Of a stretch of 35,258 bases of DNA, positions 5,489 through 18,732 are shown piece after piece. The first letter of the stretch is position 1. Each line of letters opens with the position of its first letter. The translations under genes and the position numbers were made by a program. This DNA is from Candidatus Flavonifractor merdigallinarum. Lineage in GTDB: Bacteria > Bacillota > Clostridia > Oscillospirales > Oscillospiraceae. Under the pieces are notes generated by a model that saw only the letters and a list, made by a program, of their open reading frames with translations, did no database searches and had not been told where the DNA came from. The stretch is taken from NCBI GenBank assembly GCA_019115265.1, contig DXDX01000052.1, forward strand, positions 1 to 35,258. The letters are read 5' to 3'.

Positions 5489-6952
5489 GTGATCAGTTTT
5501 CTTATCGCATTGGTACTTCTTGTGGTAGGCTTTTTTACCTACGGCAAGTTGATTGAGCGTGTGTTCCACATTGATGAGCGCAAGACCCCCGCACTGGCCC
5601 ACCCGGACGGGGTAGACTATGTGCCCATGAAAACCTGGCGGGTCTTTCTGATCCAGCTCTTGAATATCGCGGGTCTGGGTCCCATCTATGGCGCGCTGGC
5701 CGGCGCATGCTGGGGCCCGAAGGTATATCTGTGGATTGTGTTCGGCACCATCCTGGGCGGCGGCGTCCACGATTTTCTCTCCGGTATGATGAGCGAGCGC
5801 CACGACGGTGCCTCCATCTCGGAGATTGTGGGTCTCTACATGGGTAAGGTGATGACCTTTATCATGCGCATCTTCTCCGTGGTGCTGCTGATGATGGTGG
5901 GCGTCAACTTCTCCGTTGGCCCGGCCAACCTCATCGCCAGTATGACGCCCGAGGCGCTCGGCACCGCATTCTGGTTGGCGGTGATTCTGCTGTATTATAT
6001 GCTGGCCACGTTCCTGCCCATTGATAAAATCATCGGCAAGCTCTACCCCGTCTTTGGCATCTGTCTGATTATTATGGCCCTGGGCGTGGGCGGCGCTATT
6101 CTCCTGCTCCCCCAGTATCAGATGCCTGAGCTGTGGGACTCCATGGCCATTGTCCATCCGAAGGGCTATCCCATGTGGGCCATGATGTTCGTCACCGTCG
6201 CCTGCGGCGCGGTATCCGGCTTCCACGCCACCCAGTCCCCCATGATGGCCCGGTGCATGACCTCCGAGCGGGAGGGGCGCACTATCTTCTACGGCGCCAT
6301 GGTGGCGGAGGGCGTCATCGCCCTCATCTGGGCCGCCGCCGGTGTGACCTTCTATAACGGTGTGGGCCCCCTCCAGAACGCGCTGGACTCCCTTACCCAG
6401 GGCGGCGTTGTGAAAGACATCTGCATCACCCTGCTGGGCCCCGTGGGCGGCATCCTGGCCATTATCGGAGTGGTGGCCTGCCCCATCACCTCGGGCGATA
6501 CCGCCTTCCGCTCGGCCCGTCTCACCATTGCCGACTGGTTCCACCTGGACCAGTCCAATGTGGGCAAACGGGCGGCGCTGTCTGTCCCGCTGCTGGCCAT
6601 CGGCGCGGTGATTGCCACCGCGCTGCCCTGGGACATTCTGTGGCGGTACTTCTCCTGGTCCAACCAGACGCTGGCCATGCTGGTCCTCTGGACCGGCGCG
6701 GTGTTCCTTCATAAGCACGGTTTCCCGCCCATTGCCTGTCTGATGGCGGCATTTCCCGCCACCTTTATGTCGGCGGTGTCCATCACCTACTTCTTCCAGG
6801 CCTCGGAGTGCCTGAATCTGTCCACCGCCATCGCCTACCCGGTGGGTATTGTGGCCGCGCTGGCCTTTCTGGCTATCTTCGTGTGGCGCACGCTCTTCCT
6901 GCACAAGGACGATGTCAACCATGAGCTGATTGCCGCCATGCAAAAGCAATAA
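5489..6952 (+). CDS. cstA: CstA family carbon-starvation/pyruvate-peptide transporter
   Basis: A 487-residue polytopic membrane protein, the short CstA type common in clostridia (E. coli CstA is about 700 residues). The N-terminus has the family signature VGFFTYGKLIERVF and YVPMKTWRVFLIQLLNIAG, then GPIYGALAGACWGPKVY and HDFLSGMMSERHDGASISEI. More than ten hydrophobic segments follow. CstA proteins import pyruvate and, in some species, peptides when carbon is short. GTG at 5489 is the start, with CAGGAGGG just upstream. The gene has its own promoter and structured leader and ends at a strong terminator that it shares with the convergent CPBP gene. Substrate in this organism is inferred, not shown. 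Confidence 0.92.
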   Translation: MISFLIALVLLVVGFFTYGKLIERVFHIDERKTPALAHPDGVDYVPMKTWRVFLIQLLNIAGLGPIYGALAGACWGPKVYLWIVFGTILGGGVHDFLSGMMSERHDGASISEIVGLYMGKVMTFIMRIFSVVLLMMVGVNFSVGPANLIASMTPEALGTAFWLAVILLYYMLATFLPIDKIIGKLYPVFGICLIIMALGVGGAILLLPQYQMPELWDSMAIVHPKGYPMWAMMFVTVACGAVSGFHATQSPMMARCMTSEREGRTIFYGAMVAEGVIALIWAAAGVTFYNGVGPLQNALDSLTQGGVVKDICITLLGPVGGILAIIGVVACPITSGDTAFRSARLTIADWFHLDQSNVGKRAALSVPLLAIGAVIATALPWDILWRYFSWSNQTLAMLVLWTGAVFLHKHGFPPIACLMAAFPATFMSAVSITYFFQASECLNLSTAIAYPVGIVAALAFLAIFVWRTLFLHKDDVNHELIAAMQKQ

Positions 6953-6999: not shown

Positions 7000-7855
7000 A
7001 TCCCAGCGCCATCCGCGCTGCTGTATACAGGAAAGCCAGCACCACGCCGCCCTTCCGCCACCATCCACGCACTGGGACGGTATCCGCCGCCAGAGGCCAC
7101 CCTCTCCACAGGGGCCAGGCCAGGGCGCACCCGGCCAGCAGGAGGAGCAGCGTCACGCCCTCTCCCACTCTCCCCAGCCGGGGGAGAAGCAGGGCGGCGG
7201 CATTCACCCCCATATGGAGCAGCACGCAGCACCACAGCCGCCCGGTGCACAGGGCCACATAGCCCAGCATCAGCCCGCCCACCAGGGCATAGAGGAGCTG
7301 GTTGGGGCTGCCGTGGCTCAGGGCAAAGCACAGAGCGCTGGCCACCACTGCCCCCCGCTCCCCCAGCGGGGCAAGGCGGCGGAGCATCGCCCCCCGAAAG
7401 AGCCACTCCTCCGCCAGAGGGGCCAGTAGGACGGTCTGCACCGCAGTCAGCGCCGGGGGATAGGAAAAAACCGCAGCGGACGCCGGTTCAGCGCCGCTCA
7501 CCGCCTGCGCCAGCGCCGCCCCCAAGAGGGTGATCAGGTTGGCCAAATACAGCAGTCCGGGCAGCACAATGGCGCAGCACAGCAGCTCTCTCCCATGCAG
7601 CGGGGGGTGCTCCGGCCTGGACGGGGCAGGCACCTGCGCCATAGCCCATAGGGCCAGTGGGAGCCCCACGCCATAGCTGGACAGCACATTCACCGTCCAC
7701 CAAAGCGCGGGCGCGTTCCAGAAGTCCCCTGTCCATTGAAGAAGTGCGCTCTGGAGCAGCAGGGCGCACACATCCCGCCCCAGGGTCCACCCCAGCAGAG
7801 CCCAGCCCGCCGCGGCCACACAGGCCAGAGCGGACGGGCTGATTTTTTCCTCCAC
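6998..7855 (-). CDS. CPBP family intramembrane glutamic protease
   Basis: A 285-residue multi-spanning membrane protein of the CAAX-protease/bacteriocin-processing (CPBP, Abi) family. The three motifs are present: EEWLFR (E149, E150, R154), FALSH (F178, H181) and HMGVN (H214, N218), all on predicted membrane helices. Bacterial members cleave substrates inside the membrane and are linked to bacteriocin immunity, signalling or protein maturation; the substrate here cannot be told from context. The GTG at 7855 is chosen because GGGGGAG lies 8 nt upstream; an in-frame extension to 8032 would run through the promoter region and overlap nrdJ. It is divergent from nrdJ and convergent with cstA. Confidence 0.85.
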   Translation of the reverse strand: MEEKISPSALACVAAAGWALLGWTLGRDVCALLLQSALLQWTGDFWNAPALWWTVNVLSSYGVGLPLALWAMAQVPAPSRPEHPPLHGRELLCCAIVLPGLLYLANLITLLGAALAQAVSGAEPASAAVFSYPPALTAVQTVLLAPLAEEWLFRGAMLRRLAPLGERGAVVASALCFALSHGSPNQLLYALVGGLMLGYVALCTGRLWCCVLLHMGVNAAALLLPRLGRVGEGVTLLLLLAGCALAWPLWRGWPLAADTVPVRGWWRKGGVVLAFLYTAARMALG

Positions 7856-7900
7856 CGGCCGGCTCCCCCCTTCTCCTTGCGCTGCAAAGGACACGCTCTG

Positions 7901-7906
7901 ATTATA
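7901..7906 (-). promoter_or_regulatory. -10 element of the CPBP gene promoter
   Basis: Minus-strand TATAAT at 7906-7901, about 45 bp before the GTG start. No good -35 lies 17 bp upstream (TATACA at best); a TTGACA at 7938-7933 is too far for this -10 and could serve CAAAAT at 7916-7911 instead. Confidence 0.4.
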
Positions 7907-7942
7907 ACAGATTTTGCCCTCCCTGTATACTCTGTCAACATC

Positions 7943-7970
7943 TTGCTTAAAATTTTTACTGTGGTACAAT
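7943..7970 (+). promoter_or_regulatory. nrdJ promoter
   Basis: TTGCTT (7943-7948), 16-bp spacer, TACAAT (7965-7970). The leader to the nrdJ ATG is about 40 nt, too short for a cobalamin riboswitch, so B12-dependent control at the RNA level is not evident. Confidence 0.6.
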
Positions 7971-8015
7971 ATCTGGTGCCTATATCCACAAATGAGAGGA
8001 AAGGGAGCGCGCAAC

Positions 8016-10262
8016 ATGCCCATCAGCGACAACGCCCGCGCCGTGCTGGAGCGGCGCTATCTCATCCGGGACGCCCAGGGCCAGCCCACCGAGACGGTGA
8101 ACGGGCTTTTTCACCGAGTGGCCGACGCCATCGCGGCGGCAGATACCCACTTTGACCCCAACGCCGACCCGGCCGCCACTGCGGCGGAGTTCTACCAACT
8201 GCTGTCAGAGCTGGACTTTCTCCCCAATTCCCCCACCCTGATGAACGCCGGGCGACCGCTGGGTCAGCTCTCGGCCTGTTTTGTCCTGCCGGTGGGGGAC
8301 TCCATGGAGGAGATTTTTGACGCCATCAAGTACGCCGCCCTCATTCACAAGTCGGGAGGCGGCACCGGCTTCTCCTTCTCCCGCCTGCGGCCCAGCGGCT
8401 CAGCGGTGAATTCCACCGGCGGAGTGGCCAGCGGCCCGGTCTCCTTTATGAAGGTGTTCAACGCCGCCACCGAGGCGGTAAAGCAGGGCGGCACCCGCCG
8501 GGGGGCCAACATGGGTATTCTCCGGGTAGACCACCCGGACATTCTGGAGTTCATCACCTGTAAGAACGACACCAGCCAGATTACCAACTTCAACCTCTCG
8601 GTGGGGGTCACCGAGGCATTTATGCGCGCGGCGGAGGAGGGTGCCGAGTATGAGCTCATCAACCCCGCCACCGGGGCGCTGGCGGGGCGGCTCAACGCCC
8701 GCAGCGTGCTGGAGCGGATGGTGGACTCCGCCTGGCGCACCGGAGAGCCGGGCATTGTATTCCTGGACCGGCTGAACCGGGACAACCCGGTGCCCAGCAT
8801 GGGAGAAATTGAGTCCACCAACCCCTGCGGAGAACAGCCGCTGCTGCCCTATGAGGCGTGCAACCTGGGCTCTATCAATCTGGTCCGCCATGTGAAGGAG
8901 GGCCCTAACGGCCGGGAAATCCACTGGGACAAGCTGCGATGCACCATCCGCACCGCCGTCCACTTTCTGGACAATGTGATTGAGGTCAACCGCTACCCTC
9001 TGCCGGAGATTGACCGGGTCACCCGCCTGACCCGGAAAATCGGTCTGGGCGTCATGGGCTTTGCCGACCTTCTGCTCCTGCTGGGCATCCCCTACAACTC
9101 CAAAGAGGGGGTGGAAACCGCTCGGACCATCATGTCCTTTGTCCAGAAGGAGGGCCACGCCGCCAGTCAGGAGCTGGCCCAAACCCGCGGCCCCTTCCCC
9201 CTCTTCGGGGAGAGCGTCTACCGGGACGGCCCGCCTCTGCGCAACGCCACCGTCACCACCATTGCCCCCACCGGCACCCTGTCCATCCTGGCCGGGGTGA
9301 GCAGCGGGGTGGAGCCGGTGTTCGCCTACGCCTATATCCGCAACATCATGGACGGCACCCGCCTGGTGGAGACTAGCCCCATCCTCCGCGCCGCCCTGGA
9401 GGAGCGGGGACTGTGGACGGAGGAGCTGGTGCACCAGATTGCCCAGCAGGGCACACTGGCCCATCTGGAAGGGCTGCCCGCCGACCTGCGCCGGGTGTTT
9501 GTCTGCGCCCACGATGTCTCCCCCCAGTGGCATGTGGAGATGCAGGGGGCTTTTCAGCAGTACACCGACAACGCGGTGAGCAAGACGGTGAACTTCCCCC
9601 ACACCGCCACACGGGAGGATGTGGCCCAGGTCTACCAGCTGGCCTGGAAGCTGGGGTGCAAGGGCGTCACCATCTACCGGGACGGCTCCCGCAGCGAGCA
9701 GGTCCTCAATCTGGGGACCGCCACCCCCTCCGCCTGTCCCGACTGCGAATCCCCCTATGGGGCCATCCAGCCCCGGCCCCGCCCCTCGGTCACCACCGGC
9801 TTTACCGAAAAGGTGCACATTGGGTGCGGCAACCTCTATATCACGGTGAACTACGACGAAAACGGCATCTGTGAGGTGTTCACCAACACTGGCCGGGCGG
9901 GGGGCTGTCCCAGCCAGAGCGAGGCCACCGCCCGCCTGGTGAGCGTGGCGCTGCGCTCCGGCATGGACCCCCAGAACATCATCCACCAGCTCAAGGGTAT
10001 CCGCTGCCCCTCCTGTCTGCGGCAGAGCGATGTCACCGTCACCTCCTGCCCGGACGCCATCGCCCGCAGTCTGGAGAAGGTGCTGAAGGCCTCCCAGTCC
10101 GGGAGCCTCCCCGCCCCACTGGAGCCCGCTGCTCCCGCCGCTGGAAACAGCACCCCCGCGCAGGCCAAACTGGCCAAGTTCTGCCCCGAGTGCGGGGCCC
10201 GTCTGGAGCACGAGGGGGGCTGCGTCACCTGCCGGGAGTGTGGTTACTCCAAGTGTAACTGA
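8016..10262 (+). CDS. nrdJ: adenosylcobalamin-dependent (class II) ribonucleotide reductase
   Basis: A 748-residue class II enzyme that reduces ribonucleotides to deoxyribonucleotides with a B12-derived thiyl radical and needs no oxygen and no radical-generating partner. Visible features: LNFLPNSPTLMNAG-like start (LPNSPTLMNAGRPLGQLSAC), KSGGGTGFSFSRLRP, KQGGTRRGANMG, NPCGEQPLLPYEACNLGSIN, and APTGTLSILAGVSSGVEP. After the barrel there is a TSCPD domain (GCGNLYITVNYDENG to the motif TSCPD) and a C-terminal zinc ribbon with CPEC and CRECGYSKC. The start at 8016 follows AAAGGGAG; the in-frame extension to 7914 overlaps the promoter. It stands alone, without nrdR or a class III gene nearby. Confidence 0.96.
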   Translation: MPISDNARAVLERRYLIRDAQGQPTETVNGLFHRVADAIAAADTHFDPNADPAATAAEFYQLLSELDFLPNSPTLMNAGRPLGQLSACFVLPVGDSMEEIFDAIKYAALIHKSGGGTGFSFSRLRPSGSAVNSTGGVASGPVSFMKVFNAATEAVKQGGTRRGANMGILRVDHPDILEFITCKNDTSQITNFNLSVGVTEAFMRAAEEGAEYELINPATGALAGRLNARSVLERMVDSAWRTGEPGIVFLDRLNRDNPVPSMGEIESTNPCGEQPLLPYEACNLGSINLVRHVKEGPNGREIHWDKLRCTIRTAVHFLDNVIEVNRYPLPEIDRVTRLTRKIGLGVMGFADLLLLLGIPYNSKEGVETARTIMSFVQKEGHAASQELAQTRGPFPLFGESVYRDGPPLRNATVTTIAPTGTLSILAGVSSGVEPVFAYAYIRNIMDGTRLVETSPILRAALEERGLWTEELVHQIAQQGTLAHLEGLPADLRRVFVCAHDVSPQWHVEMQGAFQQYTDNAVSKTVNFPHTATREDVAQVYQLAWKLGCKGVTIYRDGSRSEQVLNLGTATPSACPDCESPYGAIQPRPRPSVTTGFTEKVHIGCGNLYITVNYDENGICEVFTNTGRAGGCPSQSEATARLVSVALRSGMDPQNIIHQLKGIRCPSCLRQSDVTVTSCPDAIARSLEKVLKASQSGSLPAPLEPAAPAAGNSTPAQAKLAKFCPECGARLEHEGGCVTCRECGYSKCN

Positions 10263-15386: not shown

Positions 15387-15434
15387 TTGACTTACCTCGG
15401 AACTCTAGGTATACTATACCTAGGAACCCGAGGT
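15387..15434 (+). promoter_or_regulatory. PadR operon promoter with tandem operators
   Basis: TTGACT (15387-15392), 17-bp spacer, TATACT (15410-15415). Two 17-bp pseudo-palindromes overlap it: ACCTCGGAACTCTAGGT at 15394-15410 and ACCTAGGAACCCGAGGT at 15418-15434, 24 bp apart. Together they form a large dyad whose core CTAGGTATACTATACCTAG is perfect and whose ends TACCTCGG / CCGAGGTA are perfect. One site fills the spacer and the other lies over the start point, so bound PadR would block transcription of its own operon. Confidence 0.85.
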
Positions 15435-15456
15435 ATCTTTGGGAAAGGAGGCTTTT

Positions 15457-15807
15457 ATGAAATCAGGCAGCAATCTGCCCACCGGCAGCACCGCTCTGCT
15501 GGTCCTCTCCCTGCTGGCGCCGGGGGACAAATACGGCTATGAGATGATTGCCGCGTTGGAGGAAAAGAGCGACCACACCTTCACCCTGAAAGAGGGCACC
15601 TTGTACCCTGTACTCCACAGTCTGGAGAAGGAGGGGGCGGTGACCGCCTACGAGAAGGAGGCCCCCACCGGCCGGAAGCGAAAGTATTATCGTATCACCC
15701 CCCGAGGTCGGCGGCTCCTGGAGGAAAAACGGACGGAATGGCAGTCCTTCAGCCGTCTGGTCAACGCCATTGTGGCCGAGGGGGAAGGGCTCCTGTCCCC
15801 CGTCTAA
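15457..15807 (+). CDS. PadR family transcriptional regulator
   Basis: A 116-residue PadR-type winged helix: STALLVLSLLAPGDKYGYEM, the recognition part TLKEGTLYPVLHSLEKEGAV and the wing GRKRKYYRITPRGRRLLEE, with a short C-terminal dimerisation helix. ATG at 15457 follows AAAGGAGG. PadR proteins of this size usually repress an adjacent membrane-protein or transporter operon and lose DNA binding on ligand contact. Its own promoter carries two matching operators, and the next four genes follow within 11 bp or with overlap, so it is the operon's autorepressor. Confidence 0.93.
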   Translation: MKSGSNLPTGSTALLVLSLLAPGDKYGYEMIAALEEKSDHTFTLKEGTLYPVLHSLEKEGAVTAYEKEAPTGRKRKYYRITPRGRRLLEEKRTEWQSFSRLVNAIVAEGEGLLSPV

Positions 15808-15818
15808 AGGAGGGCGCC

Positions 15819-16604
15819 ATGACCATCCCGGAGTACTGCGCGGCGGTGTGCCGCTTGGTCCGCTTCATCCCCGACCACCCCGCCATTGTCCGGGAACTCT
15901 CCGGCCACCTGGAGGACGCGGTGGAGGCCCATCAGGCAAAGGGCCTCCCCTATGACCAGGCGGTGGAACAGGCGGTAACCGCCATGGGGGACCCGGCCGA
16001 GGTGGGAAAAGCCCTGGATGCCCTCCACAGTCCCCTGCTGGGGTGGATACAGATCTGGGTGCGCCGGGCGCTGGTAGTGTGCGCGACGCTGATGCTCCTT
16101 CCCGCCCTGCTGGGTCTCTGGCGTCTGGGGGAATCCTGCTTTCCCCAGGAAGACCCCGCCCAGTGGCGGAGTACCCAGACGGGCGAAGGGCTGCCCGGTC
16201 TGCCCCAGCGGAATATAGTGGAGCACAGCGGCTACACCCTCTCTCTGTGGGACGGGGTACATACCACCGGCAAAGAGACAGACCAGGTCTCTCTCCTTCT
16301 GCGTCTGGACCACTTCTCCCCCTGGCTGCGCCGCCCCAGCGAGTGGACCTTTCAGTCCCTCACCGTAACGGACGATTTGGGGACCGAGTACCTCAACTGG
16401 GCCACCGCCTACCGGGAGCACCAGGCGGACTTTCAGGTGCTGGCATCCTCCAGCGGAGTCTATGACACTTTCTTCTCCGACTGGTTTGTGCTGACTATTG
16501 ATTCCATCCCGCCGGAGGCCCAGACACTGACCATCGCGCTGGAGCAAACCGGGGAGCCCTTCTCCTTTTCCATCCCACTGACAGGAGGTGGAGAAGATGA
16601 GTAG
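15819..16604 (+). CDS. permease-prefix-domain membrane protein A
   Basis: A 261-residue protein. Residues ~1-70 match the 'permease prefix domain 1' seen at the N-terminus of some FtsX-like ABC permeases: RELSGHLEDAVEAHQAKG, then AVTAMGDPAEVGKALDAL. One membrane helix follows at about 84-102, then an extracellular domain of ~155 residues with no recognised fold. The permease itself is missing. The protein is similar in plan to the product at 17250, suggesting duplication. ATG at 15819 is preceded by AAAGGAGGG, 11 bp after padR. Function unknown; expected to be single-span with the prefix domain inside. Confidence 0.82.
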   Translation: MTIPEYCAAVCRLVRFIPDHPAIVRELSGHLEDAVEAHQAKGLPYDQAVEQAVTAMGDPAEVGKALDALHSPLLGWIQIWVRRALVVCATLMLLPALLGLWRLGESCFPQEDPAQWRSTQTGEGLPGLPQRNIVEHSGYTLSLWDGVHTTGKETDQVSLLLRLDHFSPWLRRPSEWTFQSLTVTDDLGTEYLNWATAYREHQADFQVLASSSGVYDTFFSDWFVLTIDSIPPEAQTLTIALEQTGEPFSFSIPLTGGGEDE

Positions 16605-17238
16605 ACTTTTCCACAAGACGCCCACCCGCGGTGGAAAACTGCGGCGGGATTTGGTGTGCTTTCTGTTGTTGGGGGTATTGGGCTGGGTTCTTCTGGACTT
16701 CCCCTGTTTCACCCAGCAACAGGCGTTTGAGGCTCTGGAGGGCCGGAACTTCTATGGCGAGGGTCAGGTGCTGCGCACGCTGGAGGGTGAAAACGGCCAC
16801 CAGTACCGCATTACCCGTGCAGGTCATGCCTGCGCCTGGGAACAGGTGTGGCCGGTGCTCTTCTCCCGCTTTCTCTGGCAGCCGGGGCGGATGGAGATTG
16901 TCCCCGACGACCCCAGCACCCCTCTGGTGGCCCTGCCGGTAGATGCGGATTTTCTCCCCGGTGTGGTGGCGGTGCTGTGCCACGACAGCTCCATCGTCCG
17001 GGTAACGGCGGAGTACCCCGCCCTCTCCAATGCGCCGGAGGCGGAGGGCTGGCAGAAAATCCTGCTCTCCTCCACCGACTGCCGGAACAACTGCTTTCTT
17101 CTAACCGCACCGGCGGAAGAGGCCGCTTTTCTGGATGCCCAGGCCACGGATGCGCTGGTCCTCACCGGCTACAACCACGAGGGCGCGGTGGTCTGGAGGT
17201 CTCCGCAGCCCGACTGGTCCTTTTACGGATGGAAATGA
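16597..17238 (+). CDS. single-span membrane protein B of the PadR operon
   Basis: A 213-residue protein starting MSRLFHKTPTRGGKLRR, with a membrane helix at about 21-39 (LVCFLLLGVLGWVLL) after a basic N-terminus, so the remaining ~170 residues should be outside. No recognisable domain. ATG at 16597 lies 8 nt after AGGAGG and overlaps the stop of the previous gene by 8 bp, so the two are translationally coupled. The gene occupies the same place in the first pair as the product at 17999 does in the second. Function unknown. Confidence 0.78.
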   Translation: MSRLFHKTPTRGGKLRRDLVCFLLLGVLGWVLLDFPCFTQQQAFEALEGRNFYGEGQVLRTLEGENGHQYRITRAGHACAWEQVWPVLFSRFLWQPGRMEIVPDDPSTPLVALPVDADFLPGVVAVLCHDSSIVRVTAEYPALSNAPEAEGWQKILLSSTDCRNNCFLLTAPAEEAAFLDAQATDALVLTGYNHEGAVVWRSPQPDWSFYGWK

Positions 17239-17249
17239 GGTGACGCCCT

Positions 17250-18002
17250 GTGGCGCTCTTTGTACTGGAACGATACTGTGACGCGGTGTGCTCCCATATC
17301 CGCTCCAAGCTGGGCAAGCGGGAGACTTATCGGGAGCTGCGGGACCATCTGGAGGACCACATTCAGGCCCTCACCGAGCGAGGTGTCCCTGCAGACGCGG
17401 CCCCTGAGCGGGCGGTGGCCGCCATGGGGGACCCGGCGGAGGTGGGGAAGGCTCTGGACAAACTCTACCCCTACTGTCCCCCCGCCCTGCCCACTGCCTG
17501 TACACTCCTGACCGTGGCGGTACTGCTGGCCGCCTGGGGCCTACAAAGCCGGGATCACCGGCTGTCCGATCGTTTTTTCTGGCCGGACTACACCATTGAC
17601 CAGAGCCACCAACTCTCTCTGGCCTCCGGCACCGTCCGGGGCGGCGGGGAGTTGGGCCCCTACACCTTTACCCCCGCCGGGACGGCAGAGCTGATGGAAT
17701 TGTCTGGCGAGGTGGGCGAGGACGGCACCCCGCTGGCCCGTCTGCGGATGCCCATCACCATCTCCTGGTCCCGTCCCTGGCTGGACGGCCCGGCGCTGGA
17801 GGGCAGCGAGTGCTTTACCTTAGAGCACTTCCCCGACGCCCCCGGCTACTGGAATGAGGGCACACTGACGCCGCTGTCCGTCTCCGGCGAACTGGTCCTG
17901 GTGGTGGCGGAGGATTTCCACTCGGACACCCTTCTGCTCCAGGACGGGACCGGCAACACGCTCCGCTTTTCCATCGTTCTGTCCCAGGAGGTGACACCAT
18001 GA
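17250..18002 (+). CDS. permease-prefix-domain membrane protein C (paralogue of A)
   Basis: A 250-residue protein with the same layout as protein A: prefix domain in residues ~1-72 (YRELRDHLEDHIQALTERG, then AVAAMGDPAEVGKALDKL), membrane helix at ~81-98, and an external domain that ends in a similar beta-strand pattern (RFSIVL versus SFSIPL). The stretch AMGDPAEVGKALD is identical in A and C. GTG at 17250, after GAGGTGA, is the start; it lies 11 bp after gene B. Overlaps the next gene by 4 bp (ATGA). Function unknown. Confidence 0.82.
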   Translation: MALFVLERYCDAVCSHIRSKLGKRETYRELRDHLEDHIQALTERGVPADAAPERAVAAMGDPAEVGKALDKLYPYCPPALPTACTLLTVAVLLAAWGLQSRDHRLSDRFFWPDYTIDQSHQLSLASGTVRGGGELGPYTFTPAGTAELMELSGEVGEDGTPLARLRMPITISWSRPWLDGPALEGSECFTLEHFPDAPGYWNEGTLTPLSVSGELVLVVAEDFHSDTLLLQDGTGNTLRFSIVLSQEVTP

Positions 18003-18688
18003 AGTACCGCCTGCGTCTGCTGCGGGCCTGGGGGCCCGCCATTCTCTCCGCCCTGCTGCTCATCGGCTCTCTCCTCCTTCTGTGGACAGTGACCGACTTC
18101 CCCCTCCCCGCTGAGGCCACCCTCCGCCGCCTGGAGGATCAATCCCTTCTCCCCCACGGGTCCACCCTCGCCTCTGGTACGGTTGAACTGGAGCCCTTTG
18201 CAGACCGCATCCCCCGCTTCACCTGGACGCTCCGGGGAGATGGGGAGCGGAGCTGGGCGCTGCTCACGGAATCTTTTGGATTTTTGAGCCGCCCTTACTC
18301 CCGCTATATCCCCAACGCAGTGCAAGCGGAGGGCGGCCCTTTCTGGGGTACTCTGTTGGAAATCCAGACCTTTTCGACCTTTTCTCCCTCGCTGTACGGG
18401 CCCACAGAGACCAATTGGGCCACCCAGTTTTTCCTGCTGGCCCGCACCACGGACCCGGCGGTGGTGCGGGTGGAGGCCCAGGCGGGCTGGCAGGAGGAGG
18501 CGGGCAAAACGGACACCCTGGCCGCCGGAGGGTTGACCCCGGCGGAGGGCTGTGAGGGGGTCTGGACGGGCCTTCTCACCCAGGACCCCAGCGCCAACGG
18601 CCGACTGGTGTGGCGGCTGCGGGCCTATGACAAGGCCGGGTATCTGCTCTATGAGGATTGCTCTGACCCGGCACGCTTCGCCCCCTGA
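17999..18688 (+). CDS. single-span membrane protein D of the PadR operon
   Basis: A 229-residue protein with basic N-terminus MKYRLRLLRAWG and a membrane helix at about 12-32, followed by an external domain of ~195 residues without recognised motifs. The ATGA overlap with gene C couples translation. It is the partner of C, as B is the partner of A. A hairpin follows 5 bp after the stop and closes the operon. Function unknown. Confidence 0.78.
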   Translation: MKYRLRLLRAWGPAILSALLLIGSLLLLWTVTDFPLPAEATLRRLEDQSLLPHGSTLASGTVELEPFADRIPRFTWTLRGDGERSWALLTESFGFLSRPYSRYIPNAVQAEGGPFWGTLLEIQTFSTFSPSLYGPTETNWATQFFLLARTTDPAVVRVEAQAGWQEEAGKTDTLAAGGLTPAEGCEGVWTGLLTQDPSANGRLVWRLRAYDKAGYLLYEDCSDPARFAP

Positions 18689-18692
18689 TATA

Positions 18693-18732
18693 CCGCCTGT
18701 ACCGAGGCAATGCGGTACAGGCGGCGCTTGTT
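18693..18732 (+). terminator. terminator of the PadR operon
   Basis: Perfect 12-bp stem CCGCCTGTACCG (18693-18704) / CGGTACAGGCGG (18713-18724) with an 8-nt loop, followed by CGCTTGTTTG. Confidence 0.75.

Follow-up and report, generated by a model that had tools for sequence, protein, structure and literature searches.

A five-gene operon at positions 15,457 to 18,688 of a 35,258-nucleotide stretch of contig DXDX01000052.1 of Candidatus Flavonifractor merdigallinarum (this whole stretch is the window referred to below) reads as a self-contained HAAS-PadR envelope-signalling module, in which paired one-span membrane proteins would serve as both the sensors and the product. We put the probability of this reading at roughly 0.6; the signal would probably be envelope-active agents.

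Two pairs of one-span proteins behind a PadR gene

All five genes lie on the forward strand. The first (15457..15807) encodes a winged-helix repressor of 116 amino acids, of the small, subfamily-2-like PadR type (Pfam PadR, 85 bits), whose relatives of solved structure in the PDB include LmrR (3f8b) and bcPadR1 (4esb). After a gap of 11 bp, gene A (15819..16604) encodes an N-terminal cytoplasmic HAAS/perm_prefix_1 domain, one transmembrane helix and a putatively Ig-like extracytoplasmic domain, which we call a-type. It overlaps by 8 bp with gene B (16597..17238), whose ATG at 16597 is preceded by AGGAGGTGG and whose product has one N-terminal transmembrane helix and a DUF5044 extracytoplasmic beta domain. 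A further gap of 11 bp leads to the GTG start of gene C (17250..18002), a paralogue of A with a HAAS domain, one transmembrane helix and a divergent, c-type extracytoplasmic domain. C overlaps by 4 bp (ATGA) with gene D (17999..18688), a remote paralogue of B/DUF5044 that again combines one transmembrane helix with an extracytoplasmic domain. A sequence-only reading had described an operon in which PadR heads two pairs of closely spaced genes, A/B and C/D, and the gaps of 11 bp and overlaps of 4-8 bp confirm it. The flanking genes are unrelated, with a 2-hydroxyglutaryl-CoA dehydratase D-component on the opposite strand 5' of the operon and a chemotaxis receptor 3' of it; a 12-bp perfect hairpin after D (18693..18724, forward strand) probably marks the operon's end before the chemotaxis gene.

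Membrane prediction gives one segment each in A, C and D and one N-terminal segment in B, where a second hydrophobic stretch (residues 110-128) is a strand in the structure model, not a membrane segment. Together with the recurrent pairing in relatives described below, this supports the view of A-D as paired one-span envelope proteins. Searches of A-D with Pfam and NCBIfam profiles found no FtsX/MacB permease domain and no ABC ATPase, in agreement with the sequence-only reading. Nor does the operon hold PspC, LiaI-LiaF, toastrack, FtsX or VanZ parts, and profile searches of its proteins found no wall-anchoring domain. Among the anti-phage defence models of PADLOC no system matched, the one hit being a weak match of the PadR winged helix to Csa3 (19.4 bits).

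The N-terminal domain of A and C had been taken as a permease prefix, implying a missing permease, and this did not hold. NCBIfam perm_prefix_1 matches A at 45.2 bits and C at 43.0 bits (cut-off 30), and Pfam HAAS matches them at 20.8 and 21.4 bits, below its cut-off of 27 but significant. As the two models cover the same residues of A and C, the 'permease prefix' is, on these profile matches, the HAAS domain. The paper that named HAAS (Ravi et al., 2024, PMC11237479) proposes that it forms, with PadR, a signalling dyad that needs no kinase, and describes it as a three-helix domain with a GxP motif that is stated always to adjoin a standalone PadR. The string AMGDPAEVGKALD, correctly noted before as identical in A and C, is this GxP motif (AMGDPAEVG; it reads MGDP). 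In the AlphaFold model of A, helices span residues 3-12, 17-40, 45-56 and 59-69, with MGDP at 56-59, and the domain with its motif is present in A, C and all 55 of 55 aligned relatives. The operon thus has a standalone PadR (15457-15807) directly upstream of HAAS gene A, a helical-bundle HAAS domain with the GxP motif in both A and C, and a fusion of HAAS to a transmembrane helix and an Ig-like domain.

Two further HAAS genes lie elsewhere in the same genome. On contig C6 (L003:290-1979), a second PadR gene accompanies a HAAS gene with a multi-spanning membrane part and a different palindrome upstream. On contig C58 (L001:1489-2667), HAAS is joined to one transmembrane helix and a repetitive beta domain similar to toastrack/DUF4097, and no PadR gene was seen within the stretch examined.

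Outside the membrane, the predicted folds are beta-rich. The AlphaFold model of A (pLDDT 87.6) shows the HAAS helices, one long membrane helix and a beta-sandwich, for which the best Foldseek matches among solved structures were Ig domains and two Bacillus anthracis proteins at E about 1e-3; full-length TM scores were low because the query is multi-domain. Given such E values and TM scores, we assign the ectodomain of A to an Ig-like fold with moderate confidence. B belongs to DUF5044 (PF16447), a Pfam family of unknown function, at 51.7 bits against a cut-off of 25, and the same model matches 36 of 52 aligned partners as well. Its own model (pLDDT 90.8) consists of a single helix at the N-terminus and a beta-rich domain, for which the PDB offers no convincing match, none falling below E 0.01. 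By sequence, neither A nor B has a significant relative in the PDB. D lies outside every Pfam model, with relatives found in genomes G022 and G119; in hhalign comparisons, B-type and D-type partners are related (probability 98.7, E 2.4e-16), as are A-type and C-type proteins over their whole length (E 1.3e-32).

A double operator confined to the array

Upstream of the PadR gene, a forward-strand promoter and predicted PadR operator occupy 15387..15435, in a layout that is repeated 5' of PadR in related loci. The promoter consists of TTGACT (15387-15392), a 17-bp spacer and TATACT (15410-15415). Two dyads overlap it, TACCTCG-N5-CTAGGTA at 15393-15411 and TACCTAG-N5-CGAGGTA at 15417-15435, and together they make up a 43-bp element in which TACCTMG half-sites, four in all, follow each other every 12 bp in alternating direction. 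This element spans the promoter in most related loci. This double-dyad arrangement over the PadR promoter supports the autoregulation that the sequence-only reading had supposed.

In ten genomes, our own and nine others, one of them complete, the operator dyads are confined to the array; the only other copies are isolated matches with one mismatch, at the level of a reversed-pattern control. Our own genome, at about 82% completeness, could hide a second target; the near-complete genomes could not. Since the predicted operator occurs nowhere else above background, PadR most likely controls this operon alone, and the receptors would then also be its product.

The variable spacers of the 23 best operators remain mutual reverse complements at 90 of 115 positions, a count inflated by relatedness, against a mean of 57 and a maximum of 74 in shuffled sets. 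This complementarity across the 43-bp dyad is kept between species though RNA made from the promoter would not contain both arms.

Pairs that vary in number and diverge together

In the family, 39 of the 401 genomes have B-like genes; a class-wide sample yielded B-like genes in 1 of 391 genomes, our own apart. Dozens of genomes share the gene order of the PadR operon, far more than chance would give, and PadR is present at nearly every related locus. Of 75 partner genes at 41 loci, 72 lie directly 3' of a HAAS one-span gene. Two overlong ORF starts and one contig edge account for the three exceptions, so that all 75 in effect follow such a gene. One to six pairs accompany each PadR, and the same range is seen inside a single genus: PadR-A-B at L015, PadR-C-D-A-B at L013, and three, four, five and six pairs at L014, L012, L053 and L058, with PadR last in the variants L070, L071 and L081. 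Named carriers include Flavonifractor plautii ATCC 29863, which has three receptor pairs, other Flavonifractor, Pseudoflavonifractor phocaeensis and Intestinimonas.

The pairing is class-specific. An a-type ectodomain goes with a B-type partner 22 times and a c-type with a D-type 22 times, and crossed pairs are absent (44:0; the class profiles were seeded by 12 of the 44 pairs, which leaves an independent count of 32:0). Ectodomain and partner distances are correlated at r = 0.92, and HAAS and partner distances at 0.77. When partners were swapped among same-class paralogues within operons, the mean fell to 0.79 and 3 of 1000 shuffles reached the observed 0.92; when they were shuffled across loci within a class, the correlation never exceeded 0.50. 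Such correlated divergence would fit contact between A and B, and could also stem from pairs inherited as units without contact.

The sequence-only reading had seen a duplicated pair. Two pairs are indeed present, but A/B and C/D are paralogues that separated long ago and not the product of a recent duplication. For all but 1-2 of the 44 pairs the closest match lies outside the pair's own operon, so that most paralogue types would be older than the species. Mean identities are 0.57/0.51 for HAAS, 0.38/0.33 for the ectodomain and 0.38/0.35 for the partner. In several paralogue pairs non-synonymous change in the ectodomain comes near synonymous change; as synonymous sites are partly saturated, we do not formally claim positive selection. 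At L061, two genes (6039-6845 and 7554-8357) have HAAS parts near-identical at silent sites (pS 0.05) and ectodomains that are not (pS 0.46), which looks like gene conversion limited to the adaptor part.

An Ig-like fold, a copy number of 1-6 in one genus and fast-diverging outer domains would also suit structural surface proteins, adhesin-like or wall-associated and under phase or growth control, with their diversity serving surface variation rather than sensing. We consider this improbable: wall-anchoring domains were not found, each outer domain comes with a conserved HAAS domain on the cytoplasmic side, and a single-target repressor would be superfluous for a plain adhesin. The possibility, raised by the sequence-only reading itself, that A-D are remnants of degraded FtsX-type permeases has the prefix domain's name in its favour and can be set aside almost entirely, as the overlapping genes are intact, pairing and operator are conserved in dozens of genomes, and the C-terminal domains are of the Ig-like or DUF5044 kind and not of the FtsX kind.

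Many arrays adjoin a PBSX-like element comprising terminase, portal, head, sheath, baseplate and endolysin genes, whose baseplate/gpI end faces the array (L014:9331-10958, L012, L013, L015, L053-L056, L059, L061, L065, L069, L073, L074, L082, L085, L092, L096, L097, L102, L107 and L145). The baseplate gene was found in 131 genomes out of the family's 401, almost always as a single copy. In our own genome (L175:5938-6402) and in the near relative An92 (L176:7401-7862), the particle's last gene, after gpI, resembles a small carbohydrate-binding tail protein; at L014, by contrast, about 39 bp separate the end of the gpI gene from the array. If the array were tied to the resident phage-like particle, for instance as a self-protection or receptor module, then the convergent baseplate/gpI genes within about 4 kb downstream at about two dozen distinct loci, in several genera and including loci with other upstream genes, would be explained. 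Against this, the contigs that carry the particle genes in our own genome and in An92 are not those of the array, the operator is absent in front of them, and linkage can be inherited. We therefore hold such a tie to be very improbable and judge the linkage to be outside the window's own system.

A candidate kinase-free route to a transcription factor

In the signalling module that we favour, two PadR dimers on the double-dyad operator would cover the -35 and -10 elements and keep all five genes repressed. A/B and C/D pairs made at a basal level would assemble next to each other in the membrane, their Ig-like and DUF5044-type domains outside; there they would meet a signal, most probably a compound that acts on the membrane or the wall. 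HAAS on the inner face would then change state and take PadR off the operator, so that more pairs are made. As other operator copies are absent, the pairs themselves would have to be the output, for example by binding the agent or shielding against it. With several pairs under one PadR, different ectodomains could feed a single switch.

It is also conceivable, though we think it unlikely, that PadR is the direct receptor of a small molecule, like LmrR, with A-D just regulated envelope proteins and HAAS an assembly or anchoring domain without signalling. The closest well-studied small PadRs, such as LmrR, bind drugs directly, and HAAS-like domains of our own genome sometimes stand without PadR in the stretch examined (L001). 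Yet HAAS is the best-conserved part of paralogues under one PadR while the outside parts diverge, and the HAAS-PadR neighbourhood is general. A Bacillus cereus operon speaks against direct binding as well. There, BC4206-BC4207, a PadR-membrane-protein operon, is induced by enterocin AS-48, overexpression of BC4207 alone raises AS-48 resistance, and AS-48 leaves DNA binding by the PadR (bcPadR1) unchanged in vitro, which was taken as a hint of indirect sensing (PMC2774856, PMC3506622). The two operons are alike in that a small PadR represses its own operon holding a membrane protein, a likeness not based on HAAS; BC4207 differs in having four transmembrane segments, no pair and no array.

Another of the nearest operons studied by experiment is lltR-lmo0600-lmo0601 of Listeria (Hauf et al., 2019, PMC6624303). 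Its PadR is autoregulated, has a narrow regulon made up mostly of its own operon, and is followed, as here, by a DUF1700 (HAAS) membrane protein and then an extracytoplasmic-type partner. However, Lmo0600 is multi-spanning, Lmo0601 is a DUF4097 protein, and the set is single-copy. With the published dyad (PMC11237479), the operon shares a standalone PadR beside a HAAS membrane protein, the GxP three-helix HAAS and an envelope context. Unlike that dyad, the sensor here is one transmembrane helix plus an Ig-like ectodomain with an obligatory DUF5044-type partner, and several diverged pairs stand under one PadR. The claim that the complex had not been described therefore stands only in part. The signalling core is already known, HAAS being published and B being DUF5044; the receptor pair of one-span Ig-like and DUF5044-type proteins and the variable-number array per PadR are, as far as we found, undescribed in the literature searched (the supplementary tables of PMC11237479 aside). 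That literature yielded no mention of DUF5044, and we likewise found no description of its being constantly paired with a HAAS protein.

More tentatively, and with a low probability, the array may be a kinase-free multiplexed one: co-diversifying heteromeric surface receptors, gained and lost pair by pair, would report to one PadR through the HAAS adaptor and would also be what protects the cell, their evolution driven by an arms race against peptides or phage-like particles from neighbours in the gut.

The idea that HAAS-PadR signalling offers an alternative to histidine kinases comes from comparative genomics and has little mechanistic proof, and the transfer of a signal from HAAS to PadR is itself a proposal (PMC11237479). 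The module described here is small, with one promoter, one predicted operator, no other targets found and one to six pairs, in culturable gut bacteria. It gives DUF5044 the context of a role and would offer a clean test of how kinase-free one-span receptors may reach a transcription factor.
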